Source: Acidobacteriaceae bacterium
Lineage (GTDB): Bacteria; Acidobacteriota; Terriglobia; Terriglobales; Acidobacteriaceae
Reading direction: 5' to 3'
NCBI GenBank assembly: GCA_030040425.1
Contig: JASHTS010000077.1
Location: 1-61,451 of the forward strand
DNA length: 61,451 bases
Shown one piece after another: positions 17,919-46,804 of the stretch. How positions within the stretch are numbered: position 1 is the first letter of the stretch; every line of letters starts with the position of its first letter. The translations under genes were made by a program, and so were the position numbers. Under the pieces are notes generated by a model, which was not told the origin of the DNA, did not search any database, and was given only the letters and a program-made list of their open reading frames with translations.

Positions 17919-20900
17919 ATGTTCCCTGTGTCTAGGAAAGCCGTTCCGGCAATTGCCACCTTCCTTTCCCACCGAATCTCCAACATACGGCCGAGGCGAG
18001 CCAAAGCTGCCGCGAGGTGGGGAATTCTCGCAGTGCTGTTTTCCGTCTCGGGGACCCTGGTCTTTGCGCAGGCGGCTTCCGCGAACTTCGGACCCGTCGA
18101 TATTGGCGCCAGCAGCTCTGTCATTCCACTGACTTTTACGTTCCAGACATCGGACACGCTTGCATCCACACAGGTACTTACCCTGGGTTCGATGGGCCTC
18201 GATTTTGCCGATGCGGGCTCGGATACATGCACCGCGAATACTGCCTATATCGCCGGACAAAGTTGCGCAGTGAATGTGATTTTTACTCCCCGATTCGCTG
18301 GAAACCGCTTCGGCGCCGTCGTTTTGCAGGATAGCTCGGGCAACACCATGGCGGCCGGGTTTCTCCAGGGCGTAGGCGTGGGACCGCAGATCGTTTATCA
18401 ACCCGGTGTGCAAAGCGTGCTGGGCAGCGGTTTCAGTGAGCCGGCAAGCGTGGCCGTCGACGGCGATGGCGACATTTTTGTGTCCAACGTCGGCAGTTCG
18501 ACGTTGTATGAGATGGTTGCGGTGAATGGAGAGGTGCCGCCTTCGCCCACAATCAGGACGATCGGAAGCGGCTTTGGCAGCCTCCTTTTCCTTGCGATCG
18601 ACGCAGGCGGGAATCTGTATGTTGCCGACACCGAAAATAATGCGGTCAAGGAGATATTGGCGGTCAACGGCAGCATTCCGGCCTCGCCCACCATAAAAAC
18701 GCTCGGCAGCGGCTTCAGTGAACCTGCGGGTGTTGCGGTGGACACGAGCGGCGATGTCTACGTAACGAATTCCGGCAATAACACCGTGGAAGAGATGGAG
18801 GCTGTCAATGGCAGCATCCCCGCTTCGCCTACGATCCACGAGTTAGGCAGCGGTTTTCATCAACCGCTTGGCGTAGCCGTGGACGCGAGCGGCAACGTCT
18901 ACGTTGCAGATTCGGGTGACAACGCGGTCAAGGAAATTGCAGCAGGCGACGGAACCATCACCACCCTCGGCAGCGGCTTTGACACTCCCTATTCCCTCAC
19001 GCTGGACGACGCCGGCGACCTCTACGTGGCCGATTACGGCAACAATGCGGTGAAGGAAATCGTGGCGGTCAACGGCAGCATTCCGGCTTCGCCCGTGGTC
19101 GAAAAGCTGGGCAGCGGCTTTTATGGGCCGGCGGGCGTGGCGGTGGATGCGGCCGGCAACGTCTACGTTGCCGACTCTCAAGATGCCCACATAGACAAGC
19201 TGGACTTTGCCGATCCGCCAAGCCTGACGTTTGCCAGCACCGCAATTGGGGCGGTGAGCACGGACAGCCCGCGGACCGTGACCCTCCTGAACTTCGGCAA
19301 TGCCTCTCTGACGTTTCCCGTTCCGCCGGCCGGCAACAATCCGAGCATCACCACCAACTTCACTCTTAACAGCAGCGGCGCCTCCGCATGCCCGCTGCTG
19401 ACCAGCGAATCTTCCGAGCCGGCAACGCTGGCCGCAGGCGCCTCCTGCCAACTGCCCATCAGCTTTGCTCCCACGGCAACGGGAGCCCTCACAGGATCGC
19501 TCGCGTTGACAGATAACAACCTGAATGCGTCTGCGCCGAATTACGCATCGCAGAGCATCACGCTGAATGGCACGGGAACCGGCAGCTTTACGCTGTCGAG
19601 CTCGGCATCATCTCTCACCATGACGCAGGGTGGCTCGGGCACGTCCACCATCACCATAACTGATCAGAACGGATTCACGGGCAATGTGAATCTGAGCGCT
19701 TCCAATCTGCCTCCCGGCGTCGAAGCTTCGTTCAGCACGAATCCAGCCAGCGGATCCAGTGTGCTGACTCTGAGCGCGAACAGCACCTCGTCGCTCGCTG
19801 AAAATCAAACGATCACCATCACGGGAACTTCCGGCTCATTGACCGCAACCACGACGCTGCTGCTGACAGTGAATCCAGGGCCGAGCTTCCTGCTCAGCTC
19901 TTCGCCTTCCGCCCTGAGTGTCGGCCAGGGCTATTCCGGTTCATCTACCATTACGGTCACCGGAGAAAATGGCTTTACAGGCAGCGTCAGTCTGGCCGCG
20001 TCCGGGTTGCCCAGCGGGGTAACGGCGGCCTTCAGTCCCAATCCAACTGCATCGGGCTCGAGCCAGCTCACCTTTTCTGCGATCAGTTCCGCCGCCACCG
20101 GCACTTACACTGTGACCATTCAAGGAACGTCTGGTGCGTTGAGTGCGAGCTGCACAGTATCTCTCACCGTCATCGCCGAACCAAGTTTCACCATTGGTTC
20201 ATCCGTTAGTTCTGGCGGGATGTCGGCGGGTTCGTCCCTCACGTCTACGATCACGGTAACGCCCATAAACGGCTTCAACAGCGCAGTAACTCTTTCCGCG
20301 TCCGGGCTGCCTAGCGGGCTCACGGCGTCGTTCGCACCAAACCCGGCCACGAGCACCAGTGTGCTCACGCTGACGGCGAGCGCTTCCATGCCTACAGAGT
20401 CCGCTCTCATTACCATTACGGGCACCTCGGGAAATCTGACTGCAAGCACTCTCATCGATATCGGTATCACGGCACAGCCACTCGGGTTTACCCTGAGCAG
20501 CGCACCCTCTTCAATTCCCGTACTTCAGGGCTTCTCTGCAACGACGACCATTACGATCACCGGCAGTGGCGGATTTGCGGGAAGCGTCGACCTTGCCATC
20601 AGCACGTCTCCCGGCTTTAGTCTTCCCGGCGGCGTAACCGCCTCGTTCAGCCCCAATCCCGCTGTGGGAACAAGCGTGCTGACGCTCACCACGAGCCCTT
20701 CGGCGGTTCCCGCTTCCTACAACATAGGCATTACCGGCGCCTCTGGCTCGCTCAGCGCAATCGGATACATTACTTTGATCGTCCAGCCCAGTCCTGGGTT
20801 TTCGCCCTCACCCGCATATTTCGGCGCGGCCAGCGTAGGCTCCTCGAGCTCGGTGCATACGTTGACTTATACTTTTGGCGCCCCGGTAACGCTCGGCTCG

Positions 20901-23723
20901 ATGGAGGTTCTCACGCAAGGCGCCGCCGGATTGGATTACTCGAATGCCGGGACAGGAACCTGCATGGCAAATTCTTCCTATACCGCCGGGCAAAGCTGCA
21001 CATTGAACGTGGTCTTTACGCCGATGTTCGCGGGCAGCCGCAACGGCGCCGCGCTGCTCATCGATAACAACGGAAATGTGATCGCGACAGATTCCTTGCA
21101 GGGCACCGGTTACGGCCCGCAGATCGACTTCCTGCCCGGTACCCAGAACCTCCCGGGCGCCGGCTTCTACCAGCCCTGGGGCGTTGCGATCGACGGAAGC
21201 GGCGACATCTTTGTCGCCGATACCGGTAACCAGCAGGTGAAGGAGATTCTCGCCGTCAACGGAAAAATCCCTGCTTCGCCAACCATCAATGTGCTCGGAA
21301 GCGGCTTCGGTTCTCCTGCCGGCGTGGCGCTGGATAGCAGCGGGAATCTCTACGTCGCCGATTTCGCCAACAATGCCGTCTATGAGCTCTTGAATGCTGG
21401 CGGCTACACCACAATGACTACGCTCGGTGGCGGCTTCGCGAATCCATCAAGCGTAGCGGTGGACGCCAACGGCAATGTGTTCGTGGCCGATTACTCCAAT
21501 AATGCGGTCAAAGAAATTCCGCCCGGCTGTTCTACGAGCGCCTGCGTGATCGCCTTGGGCAGCGGATTCGATGCGCCGTTCAGCGTAGCGGTGGATCCAA
21601 TCGGAGACATCTTTGTTGCCGATACCAATAATTTCGCAGTCAAAGAGATCACCTGGGGAAGCAGTTACACAACCGTCAATACTCTCTTCAGTGAGCCGTC
21701 CTTCTTCGGTTGCGTAGCGTCGGACGGGCAGGGGAACCTGTACGTGTCAGACACAAAAAACAACCGCCTGCTGGAATTTCCTGCTTCCGACGGGTTCGAG
21801 ACTTACTCCACCTTGCCCGGAAGCTACAACAATCCCTATGGGCTGGCAATCAATTCCGCCTACGATATCTATGTGGCCGAGGTCGGCAGCAGCGTTGTCT
21901 CCATGGATGATTTCTCCGATCCACCCTCGCTGACGTTCGCCGCCGCCGCAATCGGCTCAACCAGCACTGACAGCCCGCAGACCATTACGGTGGAAAATGC
22001 CGGCAATTCGCCGCTGAGTTTTCCGGTCCCATCGACCGGTAACAATCCGACGCTTGGAGCGGACTTCACGCTCAACAGCACCGGCTCTTCCGATTGCCCG
22101 CTGATCACCAGCGGATCAGGAAGCGCGGGAAGCCTGGCGCCAGGCGCAAGCTGCGAGCTGCCGGTGAGCTTTACGCCCACCACTCCGGGTCAGCTGACGG
22201 AAGCGCTGGTGCTGACTGACAGCAATCTCAACGCGGCTGCGCCCGCTTACGCGACGCAGAGTGTGCAATTAACTGGAACAGGACTCGCCGCGACTCCGAC
22301 CATTAGCTGGTCCAACCCCTCCGCAATTACCTATGGGACTCCTCTTGGCGCTGCACAATTGAACGCCACGGCGAGTGTGCCTGGAACTTTCAATTACTCG
22401 CCCGCGGCCGGTGCCGTGCTTGGCGCGGGAACGCAAACGCTGAAAGTCACCTTCACACCGAATGACATTACGGACTACACCACGGCAACCGCGACGGTGA
22501 CGCTTACGGTAAATCAGGCCGTTCCTGCGATCACCTGGACAGCGCCCGCGGCCATCACCTACGGAACGGCTTTGAGCGCGACGCAGCTCAATGCGACCTC
22601 TTCCGTGGCCGGAGCGTTCGCTTACTCGCCGGTTTCGGGAACCGTGCTCGCCGCTGGGCAACAAACCTTGATGGCCACCTTTACGCCCACCGATGGCGCC
22701 GACTACACCGCCGCAACAGCCAGCGTGACGCTGACCGTGAACCAGGCGCCGCTGACCATTGCTTGGCCCACACCCAGTCAAATTATTTATGGAACCGCCT
22801 TGAGCGGCACGCAATTGAACGCCAGCTCTACCGCGCCCGGCACCTTCGTCTATTCACCGGCAGCCGGAACCGTTCTGGGAGCAGGTCAACATACCTTGAG
22901 CGTGACGCTGACGCCCACCTATCCGGGAAATTACACCACCGCGACCGCGAGTGCCAACGTAACGCTTACGGTGAATAAGGCAACTCCTTCGATCACCTGG
23001 GCGACGCCGGCTGCAATTTCCTATGGGACGGCTCTGAGCGCGACGCAACTCGATGCCAGCTCTTCGACGAGCGGAACCTTCGCCTATTCTCCGGCCGCAG
23101 GCACGGTCTTGGCTCCCGGTGAACACACCCTGACGGTGACCTTCACGCCGACGGATTCCACCGACTACACTACAGCTACGACAAGCGTCACTCTCCTGGT
23201 GAACAAAGCAACGCCCTCCATCACCTGGGCAGCGCCGGCGGCCATCACCTACGGAACGGCTTTGAGCTCGAAGCAACTGGATGCGAGCGCCTCAGTTGGC
23301 GGAAGCTTCAACTATTCACCCGCCGCCGGGACCGTACTCGGAGCTGGACAACAGACGCTCACCGTGACTTTTTCACCATCCAACTCGACGGACTACGCCA
23401 CGGCAACAGACGCAGTCACACTGACCGTGAACCAGGCCGCGCCGACCATCAAGCTTACCTCCTCTGCCAGTTCGGCCACTTTGGGCCAAACGATCACTTT
23501 TACTGCGACGATCAGCGGCAAGGGGGCCACACCGACTGGCACGGTGACGTTCCTCGATAGCGGGACGCAAATCGGAACAGGATCGCTCAATGGCAGTGGA
23601 GTAGCAACCTTCTCCACCAACGCTCTTGCCGTAGGCAAGCACTCGATTACGGCGAGCTACGGCGGAAACGCCAACTACACGACGGTAACGTCCAGCGCGG
23701 TGAATGTAACGATCAACCGATGA
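17919..23723 (+). CDS. giant secreted NHL-propeller / Ig-like repeat protein
   Basis: A 1934-residue extracellular protein with an extended N-terminal signal (helix WGILAVLFSVSGTLVFAQ about residues 34-51). The order is: choice-of-anchor domain (about 55-155), NHL propeller with repeats VAVDxxGNVYVADxxNNxVKEI (160-430), a second choice-of-anchor domain, four or five Ig-like repeats (550-955), then the same series again: anchor domain, NHL propeller (1065-1330), anchor domain, five near-identical MBG-like Ig repeats (1458-1840) and a closing Big_3-type Ig domain. No enzyme motif or C-terminal anchor is seen. Adhesion or cell-surface scaffolding is likely. Confidence 0.85.
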   Translation: MFPVSRKAVPAIATFLSHRISNIRPRRAKAAARWGILAVLFSVSGTLVFAQAASANFGPVDIGASSSVIPLTFTFQTSDTLASTQVLTLGSMGLDFADAGSDTCTANTAYIAGQSCAVNVIFTPRFAGNRFGAVVLQDSSGNTMAAGFLQGVGVGPQIVYQPGVQSVLGSGFSEPASVAVDGDGDIFVSNVGSSTLYEMVAVNGEVPPSPTIRTIGSGFGSLLFLAIDAGGNLYVADTENNAVKEILAVNGSIPASPTIKTLGSGFSEPAGVAVDTSGDVYVTNSGNNTVEEMEAVNGSIPASPTIHELGSGFHQPLGVAVDASGNVYVADSGDNAVKEIAAGDGTITTLGSGFDTPYSLTLDDAGDLYVADYGNNAVKEIVAVNGSIPASPVVEKLGSGFYGPAGVAVDAAGNVYVADSQDAHIDKLDFADPPSLTFASTAIGAVSTDSPRTVTLLNFGNASLTFPVPPAGNNPSITTNFTLNSSGASACPLLTSESSEPATLAAGASCQLPISFAPTATGALTGSLALTDNNLNASAPNYASQSITLNGTGTGSFTLSSSASSLTMTQGGSGTSTITITDQNGFTGNVNLSASNLPPGVEASFSTNPASGSSVLTLSANSTSSLAENQTITITGTSGSLTATTTLLLTVNPGPSFLLSSSPSALSVGQGYSGSSTITVTGENGFTGSVSLAASGLPSGVTAAFSPNPTASGSSQLTFSAISSAATGTYTVTIQGTSGALSASCTVSLTVIAEPSFTIGSSVSSGGMSAGSSLTSTITVTPINGFNSAVTLSASGLPSGLTASFAPNPATSTSVLTLTASASMPTESALITITGTSGNLTASTLIDIGITAQPLGFTLSSAPSSIPVLQGFSATTTITITGSGGFAGSVDLAISTSPGFSLPGGVTASFSPNPAVGTSVLTLTTSPSAVPASYNIGITGASGSLSAIGYITLIVQPSPGFSPSPAYFGAASVGSSSSVHTLTYTFGAPVTLGSMEVLTQGAAGLDYSNAGTGTCMANSSYTAGQSCTLNVVFTPMFAGSRNGAALLIDNNGNVIATDSLQGTGYGPQIDFLPGTQNLPGAGFYQPWGVAIDGSGDIFVADTGNQQVKEILAVNGKIPASPTINVLGSGFGSPAGVALDSSGNLYVADFANNAVYELLNAGGYTTMTTLGGGFANPSSVAVDANGNVFVADYSNNAVKEIPPGCSTSACVIALGSGFDAPFSVAVDPIGDIFVADTNNFAVKEITWGSSYTTVNTLFSEPSFFGCVASDGQGNLYVSDTKNNRLLEFPASDGFETYSTLPGSYNNPYGLAINSAYDIYVAEVGSSVVSMDDFSDPPSLTFAAAAIGSTSTDSPQTITVENAGNSPLSFPVPSTGNNPTLGADFTLNSTGSSDCPLITSGSGSAGSLAPGASCELPVSFTPTTPGQLTEALVLTDSNLNAAAPAYATQSVQLTGTGLAATPTISWSNPSAITYGTPLGAAQLNATASVPGTFNYSPAAGAVLGAGTQTLKVTFTPNDITDYTTATATVTLTVNQAVPAITWTAPAAITYGTALSATQLNATSSVAGAFAYSPVSGTVLAAGQQTLMATFTPTDGADYTAATASVTLTVNQAPLTIAWPTPSQIIYGTALSGTQLNASSTAPGTFVYSPAAGTVLGAGQHTLSVTLTPTYPGNYTTATASANVTLTVNKATPSITWATPAAISYGTALSATQLDASSSTSGTFAYSPAAGTVLAPGEHTLTVTFTPTDSTDYTTATTSVTLLVNKATPSITWAAPAAITYGTALSSKQLDASASVGGSFNYSPAAGTVLGAGQQTLTVTFSPSNSTDYATATDAVTLTVNQAAPTIKLTSSASSATLGQTITFTATISGKGATPTGTVTFLDSGTQIGTGSLNGSGVATFSTNALAVGKHSITASYGGNANYTTVTSSAVNVTINR
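22297..23440 (+). repeat. five tandem Ig-domain repeats of about 230 bp
   Basis: Within the giant gene five units start near 22297, 22525, 22756, 22987 and 23218. Each encodes ITWxxPxAITYGTxLSxxQL, then a TFxYSPAAGTVLxAGxQTL strand and DYTTATAxVTLTVN. They are similar at the DNA level, so recombination can change repeat number. Confidence 0.85.
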
Positions 23724-32881: not shown

Positions 32882-35800
32882 TCACTGCACCGTAATCGGC
32901 ACCGTAGTGTCTTGCATGGTCGAGCCATTGATGCCCGTAACGGTGATGGTGTAATTTCCCGCAGTCGTTCCGGCGCTGCTGGTCGCGGACGCCCCGCTGG
33001 AACTGACGCATCCGCTCGCCGCGAAAGCGAAAATTGCCAGCACCAGCATGCCGAAGAACATGTGCCACTTGCGCCGCCGGATCGGCAGGCAGAAAAAGAG
33101 CAGGGTTGCCAGGCTCGAGCCCCCGCCTACTACAAACATCCGGTGAACGGTTCTGTTGAGTGCTGTGGCGGCCGGCGCGGTGGTGTTCACCGTGAGCGTG
33201 GATGTCACCGCGGCTGACGCGATGGTCGCGGGCTGGCTTACCGAGCAAGTGGGCAAATCGACGGCGCCCTGTGGGCTTGAGGTTACCGCGCAGGCCAGCG
33301 TCACCGCACCCGAGAAGCCGCCGCTCGGTATCACGGTAATGGTTGAAGTTGTCGAGGCGCCCGGCGCAATGGTCCCAAGCGGCGACGAGCTCAACTGGAA
33401 GGATGCGGGCCCCGAACCGCCGGCGAGCGCAGTGGTCGAGTAAGTCCAGGTGAGAATCTTCTGGCTCGATGTGAGTCCGCCGCTGCCTCCCGTGAAGCCC
33501 ACATACGCCGTATCCCCGCCTACGATTTGCGCGATATTGATCGCCTGGGACGTGGTGAAGGTATCGCCGGTAACCAGATCGTTCAGGTTCAGGGTCAGCG
33601 TCGTGCCGTCGTAGGTAAGCTGCGCCTCAATTCCGTCGTCGCTGTTGAGTTCGATTCCGCTCGGACTGATGTCGATCGTGGGCGTCACCGGCGGCTCTCC
33701 GTTGGTGTAGAAGCCCGTCGAATCGCTCCCTTCGTCGTCGTAGTTGTAGAAGTTAAACTTCACGGCCACGCTCTTCTGAATGCCCTGATAGCCGAGTCCT
33801 GCCGAATCGCCGCCCAGCGCGGTCGGGCCCTGGTTCTGAATGGTGAAAGTGAATCCGTTCCCCTGTGCATTCGAGAGCTGGAATTCGAAGTTTGTGGTGA
33901 AGTTCGTAATATTGATGGGCGCATCCCAGAACACGCTGCTGGCCTGCCACAACTGGCCGTCGGTTAACTGCAGGCGCGTATCGTCGTCGGCTGCGGCGCT
34001 GCCGTTCAGGGTCAAGCCCGCCGTCGACGAGAAACCGCTGCTGAAGTTGATCGACGTGCCTCCGATCTGAATCACGTATGCCGCCGATTCGACGTTGCTG
34101 TTCTGCAGGCTGGGATCGATGGCGATCGCCTCGATGGTCTCCGACGCCGCAACCGCGATGGGGCCCGTGTACAACGTCGAGGAGGCCGAAGGTGCGGTGC
34201 CATTGGTGGTGTAATAGATCTTCGCGCTGGCGTCGGGATCCGTAATGGTCACCTGCTGCGCATTCATGTAGGTCCCCGCGGCCGGCGAGAAGGTCAGCAG
34301 CGGAGTCTGATCGGAGAATGTGAACGTGGCCGTGCTCACACCGCTCTGGATATATCCGGCCGCGCTGGCCATGGCTTCCAAAGTCGAATCCGTTGTAACC
34401 GTGATCGGTCCTGTATAGAGCGTCGATGCCGGCGTAGGTGCCGTGCCGTTCAGCGTGTAGTAGATATTTGCGTCCGCGGTGGTGGTAGAGAGCGTCACCG
34501 TCGCTGTGGAGGCGAACGTGCCGCCGTTCGGAGAAATGGAGGGAGGGGCCGCGGTCGGCTGTCCGTTGAACAGACCATACACGTCCACTTCTCCATGCGC
34601 CGCCACGTACACCTTTCCGTTGGTCACAACAGGGATGGAAAACTTGTTTGCCGGCCCGGCCGAGTCGCGCGCTGAATTCGTGTCGCTTTCATAGATGGGT
34701 TGCGAAAGGTCGTTGGCATCCCACGCGTAAAGTACCGCCGGACCGTCGGTGTTGAACTGATCGGACCGCACCGCCCAGGCAATTCCGTTTGAAGTCCCAT
34801 CCGAGGAGATAGAGAACGAAGGGCTGGGGAAGTTGGAGGTGACCGCCGTATCCGTGCTCGAAGGCGTGGTATTCATCACGCCGCTGTTCATGGTGAACAT
34901 CATGGGCGAATTGTATTCGCCCCAGAGGTACACGTTTCCGTTCCAGTAAGCGGGCGTGTTCCAGAACCCGCAGCCCTGCGTGATTTGGCCCGGCATTGCG
35001 GGACAAGTAGTGCTGTTCGCGGGCGGAACATAGGGCGCAATATCCTGGAGCGCATTCGTATTCGATGAGGCGCCCGCGGCATAGCCGCCCAGGTTGTCGC
35101 GGTTGAGAACCGTGATGCGTCCCTCTTTACCTGCCTGCACTAACTCGTGCGGAGTTGCTCCCTGCTGATCCGGCACCATGAGAAGCCCGCCGGAGCCAAG
35201 GTCCCAGTCGTGACTGTTCAGAGTTTCATAGTTGAATGAGGTAAAAGCGTCGGTCGGCGTGAGGCCGCCGTTGGCAAGATTGATATCGATAACGCTCTCG
35301 CCCAGGTCGTCACTTTCTTTGAAGGGCGGGTAGGTGGTCGTAGCGGCTCCATTACCCGTGACGATAAACATGCGCCCGCCGGGCGCATCGTCATCGATCG
35401 GCAATCCCGCGCCCGCAGCCCAAACACCTGCGCCCACATCGTTCGGCGAGAGGCACAAGACCGCGCTCTGTGCCAGGGTTGTCGCATTGTAGGCGAAGAC
35501 CCATCCATGCCAGGGGCCGTTGTCGCCGTGCGCCGCGTAGCCGAAGTAGACGTAGCCGTTGTAATAGTCCAGCGCCGAGCGCTGATTCTCCCAGAGCGGG
35601 CTGAACGTGAGTTGCCCGCCGGAGCTGCCGTTGCCGGTGCCCGCCACCGTGGCCGTCACCACCACAGGGCTGCCCGCCTCTTCATTTCCGTTCACGATAT
35701 TGATGGCATGGAGTCGCGAATAATACGTGCCGCCCTCCATGGTTGCGGCCACCACGTACATGGTGTTGGTGGCCGGATTGATGGTCGGCGTGCCGGTGAT

Positions 35801-36325
35801 GCCGATGGTTGGAGCTACATCGGGCGATCCCGTCTTGCTGTACGGTATCGCCGTTGCCCCCGCTCCCGCGCCATGCGCGGCCGTGAGCAGGCTGGTCTGC
35901 CAAATCGGATTTGCGTCTGCGCCGCCGTTCGAGTCCGCGTCGAAGGCGTAAATGGAATCGTTCTCCGTGCATACAAACAGCACATTGTGCACCTGGCCGT
36001 CGCTCATCTTGATATTGGGCACGTAGAGCGGCTGCGCGTAAACCGTGCTGTCCACGGGCAAAGCAAAGAGCTTGCCAAATGTATTCACATTCACGTTTTG
36101 CGGATTCAGCGCGGTCTCATCGGTATTCTGCCCGGCGTGGGTCAAATCGTAGCGCCACGTAAGCACCGGCACGGCCGTGGGTGTTTGCGCTGGCAGGCTC
36201 AATCCAGCCAGAAGCAGCACGCCCGGCGCGAGCAGCCACAATTTGTTAGATTTTCTGGCGATTTTGGATGCGGCGGAAATGGGAAAAAACGGGACATCTT
36301 GGGGCAGCTGGAATTTTTTTAACAT
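32882..36325 (-). CDS. secreted PQQ-like propeller / chitobiase-C / L-type lectin protein with membrane hairpin
   Basis: A 1147-residue surface protein. ATG 36325 is preferred over GTG 36331 because GAAGG lies 7-8 bases before it. After a hydrophobic signal (LLAPGVLLLAGLSLPAQ) come a PQQ/quinoprotein-like propeller (to about 585), two chitobiase-C domains (588-755; ANIYYTLNGTAPTPAST, AKIYYTTNGTAPSASST), a legume-type lectin domain (757-962; FNFYNYDDEGSDSTG) and a final Ig-like repeat. That repeat is split by two hydrophobic helices around PIRRRKW, ending in ASGC (Cys1106), then NYTITVTGINGS. Sugar binding at the surface is likely; no catalytic residues recognised. Confidence 0.82.
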   Translation of the reverse strand: MLKKFQLPQDVPFFPISAASKIARKSNKLWLLAPGVLLLAGLSLPAQTPTAVPVLTWRYDLTHAGQNTDETALNPQNVNVNTFGKLFALPVDSTVYAQPLYVPNIKMSDGQVHNVLFVCTENDSIYAFDADSNGGADANPIWQTSLLTAAHGAGAGATAIPYSKTGSPDVAPTIGITGTPTINPATNTMYVVAATMEGGTYYSRLHAINIVNGNEEAGSPVVVTATVAGTGNGSSGGQLTFSPLWENQRSALDYYNGYVYFGYAAHGDNGPWHGWVFAYNATTLAQSAVLCLSPNDVGAGVWAAGAGLPIDDDAPGGRMFIVTGNGAATTTYPPFKESDDLGESVIDINLANGGLTPTDAFTSFNYETLNSHDWDLGSGGLLMVPDQQGATPHELVQAGKEGRITVLNRDNLGGYAAGASSNTNALQDIAPYVPPANSTTCPAMPGQITQGCGFWNTPAYWNGNVYLWGEYNSPMMFTMNSGVMNTTPSSTDTAVTSNFPSPSFSISSDGTSNGIAWAVRSDQFNTDGPAVLYAWDANDLSQPIYESDTNSARDSAGPANKFSIPVVTNGKVYVAAHGEVDVYGLFNGQPTAAPPSISPNGGTFASTATVTLSTTTADANIYYTLNGTAPTPASTLYTGPITVTTDSTLEAMASAAGYIQSGVSTATFTFSDQTPLLTFSPAAGTYMNAQQVTITDPDASAKIYYTTNGTAPSASSTLYTGPIAVAASETIEAIAIDPSLQNSNVESAAYVIQIGGTSINFSSGFSSTAGLTLNGSAAADDDTRLQLTDGQLWQASSVFWDAPINITNFTTNFEFQLSNAQGNGFTFTIQNQGPTALGGDSAGLGYQGIQKSVAVKFNFYNYDDEGSDSTGFYTNGEPPVTPTIDISPSGIELNSDDGIEAQLTYDGTTLTLNLNDLVTGDTFTTSQAINIAQIVGGDTAYVGFTGGSGGLTSSQKILTWTYSTTALAGGSGPASFQLSSSPLGTIAPGASTTSTITVIPSGGFSGAVTLACAVTSSPQGAVDLPTCSVSQPATIASAAVTSTLTVNTTAPAATALNRTVHRMFVVGGGSSLATLLFFCLPIRRRKWHMFFGMLVLAIFAFAASGCVSSSGASATSSAGTTAGNYTITVTGINGSTMQDTTVPITVQ

Positions 36326-36644
36326 GCGCACTACCTTCGCCGAGTTATGAATTCAAGGTCCGCGCGGGAAGGAGGCGAAGCGGGCTGGCATGATCGCACC
36401 CGTCGTGGGGCACACGAGGCCGTTCGAAAGAACTGGGCAAGCAGTTCCCTCGGTGAACACGCGGGCACGCCAGCGCAACAACTCCCTTCAGCAAAAGGAC
36501 CCTGGTCGTTTACGAGCGCAACATGAACGTTGTAGCAATTAGGAATCTTTCGACTTCGAACGCTCCGCACAGCTTTGGAAGCGATAATTTGGATGGCCTT
36601 CAGGCTGGCTGCGGTTGCTTATCGCGGGATCATCCGTTTTCGCG
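36326..36644. other. divergent intergenic region
   Basis: About 320 bp between divergent genes; holds both promoters. No consensus site, RNA or small gene recognised. Confidence 0.35.
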
Positions 36645-43181: not shown

Positions 43182-43886
43182 ATGCGTTTGTCTCCGAATT
43201 CCCCGGGCCGGCCGCGTCTTTTTCGGCCATCGGCCCGCCTCCCGCGCGCAATCCTGATTCTGGCGCTCACCCTCTCTCCCGCTTGCGTCTTCGCGCAAAG
43301 TGCCCCGCACACCGCCGCTCCTGAATCTGCGGCTCTCAATGCCCGCGACGCAAACGGCCTTACCCCTCTAGTCGCTGCGGCCTCCCAAGGCAGCACGGCG
43401 CTGGTGAAGTCTCTGCTGGCTCAGGGAGCCCTGGTGAATGCAACCGCGGCCGACGGCCGTACGGCGCTCATCGCCGCCGCGCAGAGCGGAAAGATCGACA
43501 CGGTCGCCACGCTCATCGCCGCCGGCGCCAATCTCGACTGGTCCGCTCGTGGCCAGGGAACCGCGCTGAATGTTGCGGAAAACACCGGACAGACGCAGAT
43601 CGCCGCGCTGCTTCTCGCTTCCGGCGCGCACTCCACCGGCAAGTCCGTCGGCGATACCGTCTGTGTCCGGCCCTGGGCAGGCGATGGTTTTTGCGGCACG
43701 GTGCGCTCGTTCACGGTGCGCTCGGTCGAAATCGAAATCACCAAGATCGTCGGCTGCGCCGGCGGGTGCCAGGCGCGCCCCGAGTGCTCCGCGGCCAGGC
43801 CCGTGGGCGGCAACGATGGCGTTCAATCCGGCGACCGCATCGCCGTCCCCAGCTGGTGCCTGACGCAGACGGGGGTGAAACCATGA
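43182..43886 (+). CDS. secreted ankyrin-repeat protein
   Basis: A 234-residue protein. A signal helix (ARLPRAILILALTLSPACVFAQ, about 20-41) leads into three ankyrin repeats (ANGLTPLVAAASQGSTALVK, DGRTALIAAAQSGKIDTVA, GTALNVAENTGQTQIAALLL) and a C-terminal Cys-rich domain of about 80 residues (VCVRPWAGDGFCGT, IVGCAGGCQARPEC) that may hold disulphides. The stop codon overlaps the ATG of the next gene as ATGA, so translation of the glycosidase is probably coupled to it. Partner-binding or chaperone role is inferred only. Confidence 0.8.
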   Translation: MRLSPNSPGRPRLFRPSARLPRAILILALTLSPACVFAQSAPHTAAPESAALNARDANGLTPLVAAASQGSTALVKSLLAQGALVNATAADGRTALIAAAQSGKIDTVATLIAAGANLDWSARGQGTALNVAENTGQTQIAALLLASGAHSTGKSVGDTVCVRPWAGDGFCGTVRSFTVRSVEIEITKIVGCAGGCQARPECSAARPVGGNDGVQSGDRIAVPSWCLTQTGVKP

Positions 43887-46804
43887 ATCGCGCGCACGCG
43901 TTCTCCCCCCGCAACTTGCGCTTTCTTGCTTCCGGCCTGCTGGCCGTTCTTGCCGTCTTTGCGGGCTCGCCCGCCACGCGTGCCCAGAGCCAGTCGGGTT
44001 TCCAGTACAACGGCATCGACCTCGCTGACTACACGCAGGACGGCTACCTCTCGAGTTCGGAGGCCGCACAGACCATCCGCGCGACCAGCGCCAACTACAC
44101 CGCCGTGATGGCCACCTGGTACGTCCAGACTTTCGATTCGAACTCCATCGCGCCGGAGACCACCTCTTCCCCCGGCTATGACGCGAGCACCGATCCGCTT
44201 TCGCCCGCTGATGCTGCGGTGATCGCGGCCATTCAGGCCTTGCAGGCGCAGGGCATTACGGTTGCGCTCAAGCCCCACGTGGACTCGATCGACGGAACCT
44301 GGCGCGGAGATTTCACCTGGCCAAGCGCCGATACCACCACCGCCGAGCAGCAGGCCTGGCTCACGGCCTGGTTCACCAGCTACCAGTCTTTCATCCTGCA
44401 CTTCGCGCAGATCGCATCGCAGAACGGTGTGGGCATTCTCGTCATCGGCACCGAGTTCGCCAAGCTCAGCGGCAGCACCTGCGCCGGCAGCTGCGAATCG
44501 TATTGGCTGCAGTATGTCATCGATCCTCTGCGGCAGCAGTATCCCAACCTCACCCTGGCTTACGGCGCCAACGCCACCAGCGCCGGCGACGAGTTCACCA
44601 CCGTCTCCTTCTGGAAGGACGTGGACATCATCGGCGTGGACGGCTATTTTCCCATCGACAACTCCGCCGATTGCAACACCAGCACACCGCCGGACCCCAC
44701 GCTGGCTGAGCTCGAAAGCGGCTGGACCGACAACCCCTGCAGCGGCGACTTCAATGCTGTGGCTGCCCTTCAGAATCTCTCCAGCGCCTACCCCGGCAAG
44801 CCGCTGATCTTCACGGAGATCGGTTACCCCAGCGCAACCGGCTCCAACGCGGCTCCTTACAACTACACGCCTACCGGCGCCTACGACGACACCGAGCAGT
44901 CGAACTGTTACGAGGCGTTCTTCGAGATTTTCAGCCAGCAGACCTCGTGGATGAAGGGCGTCTTCTGGTGGGCGTGGATGGTTTCGCCGCCCGCGGCCAA
45001 CGACACCGGCTATTCGCCGCAGAACAAGACCGCCGGCGACACCACGCTCCCGGAGTGGTACGGCTCGCAAACCGAGGGCTTTACGCTCGCGCCCGCCAAT
45101 GCCGCACTTACGCTGAACCAGAGCTCGAATATCTCCACCGTCATCTCCATCACGCCGCTTGACGGCTTCAACGGATCGGTCACCCTGGCCGTCTCCGGCT
45201 TGCCGAGCGGTGTCACGGCGTCCTTCACTGCCGGCAGCGCCGCAAATACGCAGATCCTCGCGCTCAAGGCCAGCAGCACGGCGACAGCCGGTGGTCCGGT
45301 GAGCATCACCGTGACGGGAACCTCCGGAAGCCTCACGGCAACCACTTCCATCGCTCTCACCGTTCAGGCCCTGCCGCCCGGCTTCACGCTTACAGCTTCG
45401 CCCGGCACCCTATCTGTCGGCCAGGGCTCCTCAGCCGTAAGCACCATCACAGTCACCGATGTCGGCGGATTCTCAGGCGCGGTTACGCTGGCCGCCTCGA
45501 ATCTGCCCAGCGGCGTTACCGCCACTTTTGGCGCCGGCGCCGCTGCCGGCACGCAGGTGGTCACGCTCGCCGTCAGCGCCACCACGCCCACCGGAACAAC
45601 CTCGGTGACCGTCACCGGAACCGGTACTTCGGGTGCGCAGACGCTCACCGCGAGTACGACCATCGAACTCACCGTGGGCCCGCCCAACTTCACTGTTACG
45701 CCCGGGCTTTCCTCGCTCTCCATCGCCCAGGGCGGCAGCAACATGGAGACGATCACGGTCACGGACGCCAACGGCTTTAGCGGCGACGTGAGTCTGGCCG
45801 CGTCCGGACTGCCGGCCGGCATTACCGCCTCCTTCAACCCCACTTCCGCAACCAGCTCGAGCGAGCTCACGCTCACCGCCTCGAGCTCCGCCGGACTGGG
45901 CGGTCCGGTCACCATCACTATCACTGGGACCAGCGGCAGCCTCTCTGCTTCCACAACCATTCAGATCACCGTCGTAGTCCCGCCCAGCTTCACGCTCAGC
46001 ACGCAGGATCAAGCCTATTCCGTGGCACAGGGCGAGAGCTCGCCCATCCCCGTCACCATCTCTGACCTGGGCGGATTCGACGGCAGCGTCCAATTCACGG
46101 CCACCGGATTGCCGAGCGGCGTAACCGGCAGCTTCAGTCCCAATCCCACCACGAGCGCCTCTACCACACTCACCGTCACCGCCTCCGGTACCGCCGAGAT
46201 CGAAGGGCCGGTGGACGTCACCATCACCGGCACCTCCGGCAGCATCCTTGAAGAGACCACCATCGAGCTTTCTGTGACGGGCATCCCCGGCTTCGCCGCC
46301 AGTGGGAATCCCGATTCGTCTATCACCATTGAAGCCGGCGCAACCAGCGGCAATACCGCCACCATTGCGGTGATCGGCACCAACGGATTCAGCGGAACCG
46401 TGAACCTCACCTGTGCCATTACACCGGTCGCGGCCAAAGATCCGCCCACATGCAGCCTTTCGCCCGCATCCCTGACCATCAGCGGTACAGCCGCGGCCGC
46501 GTCTCTGCTCACCATTACCACCGTTGCCCCGGGGGCCGCTTTGAGCCGGCGCGAAAACCTCTTCTTGCCCGCGACGGGTGGAACCGCGCTTGCCCTGGTT
46601 CTGTTCGTGTTCGTCCCGAGGCGTCGCCGGAATTGGCTCACCCTGGTCGTGCTCCTTTCGCTCGCCGTCTCTCTGGGCGCGATCGGCTGCGGCGGTAAGA
46701 GCGGAGCCCCAGGTACTACCCCGGGCACTTACACCGTCACCGTGACGGGTACCTCGGGTTCGACGAACGCCACCGTAGGCACGGTTTCGTTGACTATCCA
46801 ATAG
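43883..46804 (+). CDS. GH113-like glycosidase with Ig-like repeats and split C-terminal membrane anchor
   Basis: A 973-residue secreted protein, signal FLASGLLAVLAVFAGSPATRAQ. Residues about 35-390 are a TIM-barrel resembling GH113 beta-mannanases: ALKPHVDSIDGTWRGDF, the acid/base candidate in IGTEFAKLSG and the nucleophile candidate in FTEIGYPS. From about 400 come four Ig-like repeats of about 95-100 residues (TITVTDVGGFSGAVTLAASN and variants). The fifth is interrupted between ASLLTITTVAPG and GTYTVTVTGTSGS by two hydrophobic helices flanking PRRRRNW and a lipobox-like AIGC (Cys936). The start overlaps the ankyrin gene stop. Confidence 0.85.
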   Translation: MNRAHAFSPRNLRFLASGLLAVLAVFAGSPATRAQSQSGFQYNGIDLADYTQDGYLSSSEAAQTIRATSANYTAVMATWYVQTFDSNSIAPETTSSPGYDASTDPLSPADAAVIAAIQALQAQGITVALKPHVDSIDGTWRGDFTWPSADTTTAEQQAWLTAWFTSYQSFILHFAQIASQNGVGILVIGTEFAKLSGSTCAGSCESYWLQYVIDPLRQQYPNLTLAYGANATSAGDEFTTVSFWKDVDIIGVDGYFPIDNSADCNTSTPPDPTLAELESGWTDNPCSGDFNAVAALQNLSSAYPGKPLIFTEIGYPSATGSNAAPYNYTPTGAYDDTEQSNCYEAFFEIFSQQTSWMKGVFWWAWMVSPPAANDTGYSPQNKTAGDTTLPEWYGSQTEGFTLAPANAALTLNQSSNISTVISITPLDGFNGSVTLAVSGLPSGVTASFTAGSAANTQILALKASSTATAGGPVSITVTGTSGSLTATTSIALTVQALPPGFTLTASPGTLSVGQGSSAVSTITVTDVGGFSGAVTLAASNLPSGVTATFGAGAAAGTQVVTLAVSATTPTGTTSVTVTGTGTSGAQTLTASTTIELTVGPPNFTVTPGLSSLSIAQGGSNMETITVTDANGFSGDVSLAASGLPAGITASFNPTSATSSSELTLTASSSAGLGGPVTITITGTSGSLSASTTIQITVVVPPSFTLSTQDQAYSVAQGESSPIPVTISDLGGFDGSVQFTATGLPSGVTGSFSPNPTTSASTTLTVTASGTAEIEGPVDVTITGTSGSILEETTIELSVTGIPGFAASGNPDSSITIEAGATSGNTATIAVIGTNGFSGTVNLTCAITPVAAKDPPTCSLSPASLTISGTAAAASLLTITTVAPGAALSRRENLFLPATGGTALALVLFVFVPRRRRNWLTLVVLLSLAVSLGAIGCGGKSGAPGTTPGTYTVTVTGTSGSTNATVGTVSLTIQ

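Follow-up and report, generated by a model that had tools for sequence, protein, structure and literature searches.

How secreted enzymes of Acidobacteriota, which are abundant soil bacteria, are attached to the cell is little understood. The window analyzed here, a stretch of 61,451 nucleotides from contig JASHTS010000077.1 of an Acidobacteriaceae bacterium (assembly GCA_030040425.1), raises this question in a specific form. One of its genes (43883..46804, + strand) encodes a secreted GH113 protein of 973 aa with five immunoglobulin (Ig)-like repeats and an anchor tail, and in this tail, the last repeat is interrupted by two hydrophobic helices that lead up to a cysteine. What is the function of such an interrupted domain, and which cellular machinery would act on it? 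We report a combination of sequence, structural and phyletic analyses which indicate that the tail belongs to a conserved, already catalogued family and suggest that it is probably a membrane anchor that is lipidated on the cysteine and, possibly, cleaved in front of it, the Ig fold then keeping the two pieces joined.

The Ig-like repeats of the GH113 protein start at residues 399, 500, 602, 702 and 803; repeats one to four each span 100-102 residues, and the fifth spans 171. The strands of the fifth repeat that precede the interruption (residues 803-884; 46289..46534, +) include a Cys pair, LTC...TCSL, frequent in tail domains, and end with SLLTITTVAPG (residues 874-884). The following elements, all on the + strand, are the first hydrophobic helix region, LPATGGTALALVLFVFV (residues 895-911; 46565..46615), with LPATGG beginning at residue 895; the basic loop PRRRRNW (residues 912-918; 46616..46636), which is expected to face the cytoplasm; the second hydrophobic helix with its lipobox-like end, LTLVVLLSLAVSLGAIG (residues 919-935; 46637..46687); the invariant Cys936 (TGC, 46688..46690), the putative lipidation site; a Gly/Ser-type linker (residues 937-947; 46691..46723); and the last two strands of the repeat (residues 948-973; 46724..46801), where GTYTVTVTGTSG (GTYTVTVTG) begins at residue 948. 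An earlier note made from the DNA letters had described this arrangement, and its description holds: beyond residue 884, two helices with PRRRRNW between them and AIGC936 at their end split the repeat, which resumes at residue 948, and exactly 37 residues follow the cysteine. The spacer, put there at about 65 residues, counts 63. The note had also proposed that the segment after the cysteine supplies the missing last strands, and this is borne out by alignment with the ends of the other repeats of about 101 residues (about positions 67-97), which is clear for the first and third repeats (z 5.9 and 5.3; 0/500 shuffles as good) and weaker for the fourth (z 1.9).

Structural modeling of the tails points to the same organization. 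The AlphaFold model of the GH113 tail (24 sequences; mean pLDDT 78) has strands as far as residue 80 of the modeled fragment, helices at 99-111 and 114-134, and strands again at 149-159 and 162-173. The same order of elements is seen in the model for the tail of a second protein of the window (mean pLDDT 82, with the strands after the cysteine at about 96). When the models were compared with VIA-align to 1EUT, the Micromonospora viridifaciens sialidase, each aligned from end to end with a single contiguous Ig-like domain (404-502), over 98 residues at 2.0 Å (Z 11.7) for the GH113 tail and over 97 residues at 1.9 Å (Z 12.3) for the second tail. Because both models span one contiguous Ig-like domain, the helices appear, as modeled, to be an insertion in one sandwich, with the strands that flank the hairpin predicted to belong together in both tails. 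Other Ig-type domains score close behind, and we therefore do not claim any particular Ig family.

The second protein is the one whose tail the earlier note had named alongside that of the GH113 protein, giving its length as 1147 residues. It does carry the same tail: its open reading frame (32882..36331, − strand) has 1149 codons starting from GTG and encodes CHB_HEX_C_1 and Fn3_assoc domains, a region with a weak legume-lectin match, and the anchor tail, in which the last Ig-like domain with the hairpin (32885..33412, −) includes Cys1108 (33008-33010). Both tails are members of NCBIfam NF058595.1 (invert_tail, "lipo-invert putative C-terminal anchoring domain"; release 20.0, curated cut-off 37 bits). 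The GH113 protein matches over residues 873-973 with 72.1 bits (whole-protein E 4.4e-20) and the second protein matches with 65.8 bits; each covers nearly the full 113-position model, without any difference from it. The anchoring function remains putative in our reading, as it is in the family name. Among the papers searched, none uses the name "lipo-invert", and nothing on this tail was found under lipoprotein sorting, lipoboxes or the anchors of Acidobacteria. To the existing catalogue entry, we add the split-Ig structure, the boundary of the clade that carries the tail, the statistics of the cysteine obtained with its column masked, and a variant in which the hairpin occupies another loop.

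Tails were collected with a hidden Markov model in which the Cys column was masked, yielding 98 distinct tails, and the cysteine is nevertheless present in 98/98. The residue at position -1 is Gly in 53 tails, Ala in 33 and Ser in 12, as required in lipoproteins. When the hairpin sequences were clustered at 40% identity, 62 clusters resulted, and -1 is G/A/S in 100% of them, compared to 34% at positions -2 to -12; the clusters share ancestry, so that multiplying their odds would give no true probability. Even so, such a restriction would not be expected of an ordinary helix end. At position +2, Gly is found in 82 tails and Asp in none, and 93/98 tails contain 3-8 Arg/Lys at -32 to -12. N-terminal lipoprotein-like sequences encoded at the same loci end in much the same way (...AAPAIGCGGGG, ...IGLAGCGGGS), and the 7 such controls with G/A/S at -1 are illustrative only. 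The tail differs from these in its location: Cys936 is near the end of a chain of 973 residues that begins with a separate, signal peptidase I-like (SPI-like) Sec signal peptide, read from the sequence as ...SPATRA|Q (residues 1-34; 43883..43984, +). SPI-like N-termini are present in relatives as well.

Taken together, the conservation of the tail, the invariance of the cysteine and of the small residue preceding it, and the single sandwich in the models support the proposal of the earlier note that a C-terminal anchor with a lipobox-like site is inserted into a beta-sandwich. The most plausible sequence of events, which we consider probable as a whole, would start with export of the protein via the N-terminal signal peptide. 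Transfer would then halt at the first helix of the hairpin, with the RRRR loop left on the cytoplasmic side, and the second helix would cross back in the manner of a lipoprotein signal sequence, bringing [G/A/S]-Cys to the outer face. With the second helix crossing back, both halves of the Ig-like domain would be located outside the inner membrane, where they are predicted to assemble about the hairpin into a single sandwich. Lgt would attach a diacylglyceryl group to Cys936, and LspA may, with less certainty than applies to lipidation, cut before it. Should this happen, the resulting 38-residue lipopeptide would not be lost because it carries the last two Ig strands, and by supplying them it would keep hold of the enzyme; if no cut is made, the hairpin would stay continuous and carry its lipid internally. 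Either way, the passenger, here a GH113 glycosidase, would end up tethered to the cell envelope. Only tentatively do we extend this proposal to its most far-reaching form, in which internal cleavage by LspA yields a large passenger and a lipopeptide of about 40 residues that retains it on the membrane solely through completion of the last Ig-like domain, and strand complementation serves one clade as a general non-covalent lipid anchor for secreted proteins, several to many of them in each genome.

Several points weigh against this scheme. First, position -3 is looser than in the textbook lipobox, with L/V/I in 43/98 tails, Ala in the GH113 protein of the window, and Gln or Glu in some tails. 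Second, a Foldseek search gave no match below E 0.001, so that the single sandwich is read from the models and from VIA-align. Third, if LspA cuts, the first helix would still hold the passenger in the inner membrane; because this helix stays on the passenger chain, the protein could reach the outer membrane only by way of an additional sorting step, for which no candidate was found.

One alternative is counted within the same proposal: Lgt lipidates the cysteine and LspA does not cut, so that the chain stays whole, with a transmembrane hairpin and an internal lipidated Cys. The sequence features discussed above are the same for this branch, and an unbroken chain needs no Ig fold to join two pieces. 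However, apart from the cysteine itself, no position is as strict as the G/A/S at -1, next to where LspA would cut, and LspA usually cuts lipidated substrates of such shape; we regard the uncut form as rather unlikely. Each of 21 genomes of the order encodes one copy of LspA, and a second LspA devoted to the tails was accordingly rejected.

A plain inner-membrane hairpin anchor, with the Cys unlipidated, nothing cut, and the Ig-like domain lying on the membrane surface with the hairpin dipped in, is improbable. A pair of short hydrophobic helices flanking a basic loop could be enough to anchor a protein, and the looseness at -3 fits this view of the tail. Left unexplained are the invariant Cys, the exclusive G/A/S at -1 in 62 divergent clusters, and the Gly/Ser linker that resembles those of true lipoproteins.

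The possibility that the tail serves as a signal for a sortase, rhombosortase or exosortase, with cleavage ahead of the first helix at LPATGG or GG so that the enzyme is released or transferred, can be set aside as highly improbable: LPATGG followed by a helix and RRRR does resemble an LPXTG signal (TIGR01167, 11.2 bits, below the cut-off of 15.9), and GG-like residues precede the helix in 48/98 tails, but LPxTG occurs in 1/98 tails, and the second helix, the Cys and two strands come afterwards, unlike in such signals. The candidate enzymes do not follow the tail closely either. Sortase (PF04203) has no match in the genome of the window, which is about 75% complete, nor in five relatives of its family, and is found in 6/16 tail carriers versus 11/25 non-carriers. 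LPATGG was thus rejected as a sortase motif, and the sortase-like partner envisaged in the earlier note is not supported. Rhombosortase (TIGR03902) was above the cut-off in 0/21 tail-carrying genomes and was likewise rejected. Exosortase is more common in carriers (11/16, against 5/25 non-carriers); it is missing from two carriers, G007 and G023, both rated 100% complete, and is therefore not required. Because sortase and exosortase track the tail too loosely and rhombosortase never exceeds the cut-off, the simplest partner of the tail is the general lipoprotein pathway.

Natural variants further delineate the tail. In one protein from the genome of the window (L007:1150-2049, −), about 100 extra residues separate the Cys from the last two strands, which are retained at the very end. 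In three other relatives (L139:1330-1848, +; L140:1498-2043, −; L144:1417-1977, −), the hairpin follows the strand GTYxI, one loop later, such that only the last strand comes after the Cys. All four keep at least the last strand after the Cys, in a collection where every tail search also scored the post-Cys strands, so that tails without them could be missed. Weak matches to NF058597 "choice-of-anchor Z" repeats were observed in L139 and L144.

The tail-bearing domain itself is richer in cysteine than the repeats upstream, at about twice their Cys density, and exactly two Cys are found in 75/96 tails; a disulfide formed by this pair is possible. The GH113 protein further contains the catalytic domain (residues 55-369; 44045..44989, +), for which Pfam PF22612 (1.5e-44) confirms the assignment to GH113 in the earlier note, and the four unbroken Ig-like repeats (residues 399-802; 45077..46288, +). 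Immediately upstream is the gene for an ankyrin-repeat protein (43182-43886, +), the stop codon of which (TGA, 43884-43886) overlaps the ATG (43883) of the GH113 gene, and this overlap suggests that the two genes are translationally coupled. Elsewhere in the window, a 1934-residue protein (17919-23723, +) combines NHL repeats with HYDIN/CFAP65/ASH-type Ig domains and ends in Big_3_5, with no anchor tail seen.

The phyletic distribution of the tail is wide within a restricted clade. In a sample of the phylum, the tail was detected in 5/60 genomes, all within the family of the window, and within that family it is present in 58/60 genomes and 57/59 genera. All 41 of the 41 genomes examined in the order are positive, which adds a second family. 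The class sample gave 16/41, with every sampled member of families f1, f38 and f40 positive and none in the other seven families, so that the tail is known from four families of the class in total. The conservation in homologs that the earlier note called for is thus observed across family, order and these four families. Loci with the tail include those of Acidobacteriaceae genomes, Edaphobacter modestus and Paracidobacterium acidisoli. The matches in P. acidisoli share their coordinates with those in a genome of family f1, which suggests that f1 is Acidobacteriaceae. The number of proteins with the tail ranges from several to many in a genome: 17 places exceed the NF058595.1 cut-off in the 75% complete genome of the window, and passengers elsewhere include S53-type proteases and kelch proteins. 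Two contigs labeled Rhodanobacteraceae (L117) and Solirubrobacterales (L129) also carry the tail, the first from a genome with eight matches; these are suspected to be mislabeled or mixed bins. A search of a plasmid collection gave no match, and spread of the tail on plasmids was rejected.

Several known systems invite comparison. Closest is the family itself: as noted, the two tails of the window match NF058595.1 above its cut-off, whereas the relatives with the hairpin one loop later, L139, L140 and L144, score below it. MYXO-CTERM, the target of myxosortase, is likewise a C-terminal anchor carried by many passengers per genome, in which an invariant Cys, predicted to be lipidated, is followed by a helix and an Arg-rich end, and the cleavage site is distal to this Cys (PMC11980579). 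The order in the GH113 tail is reversed, namely, helix, Arg cluster, helix, Cys and two beta strands, and the tail accordingly does not qualify as MYXO-CTERM. It is our guess that "lipo-invert" refers to this reversal. The first half of some tails, with GG-like residues, a helix and an Arg cluster, is similar to GlyGly-CTERM, the rhombosortase signal (PMC3237569); the tails differ in extending further past the Arg cluster, and their carriers lack rhombosortase above the cut-off.

With the bacterial lipoprotein signals processed by Lgt and LspA, the tail shares the basic stretch, the hydrophobic stretch, [G/A/S]-Cys and the Gly/Ser linker. It differs in being positioned near the C terminus after another helix, in the looser -3, and in that most of the protein precedes the Cys. 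What the tail suggests, then, is the ordinary lipoprotein pathway acting on an internal site close to the C terminus. This is moderately surprising as it stands and would be highly so if internal LspA cleavage were demonstrated, in which case the Ig domain would be a clamp that joins two chains, a type of anchoring that we know of from no other lipoprotein.
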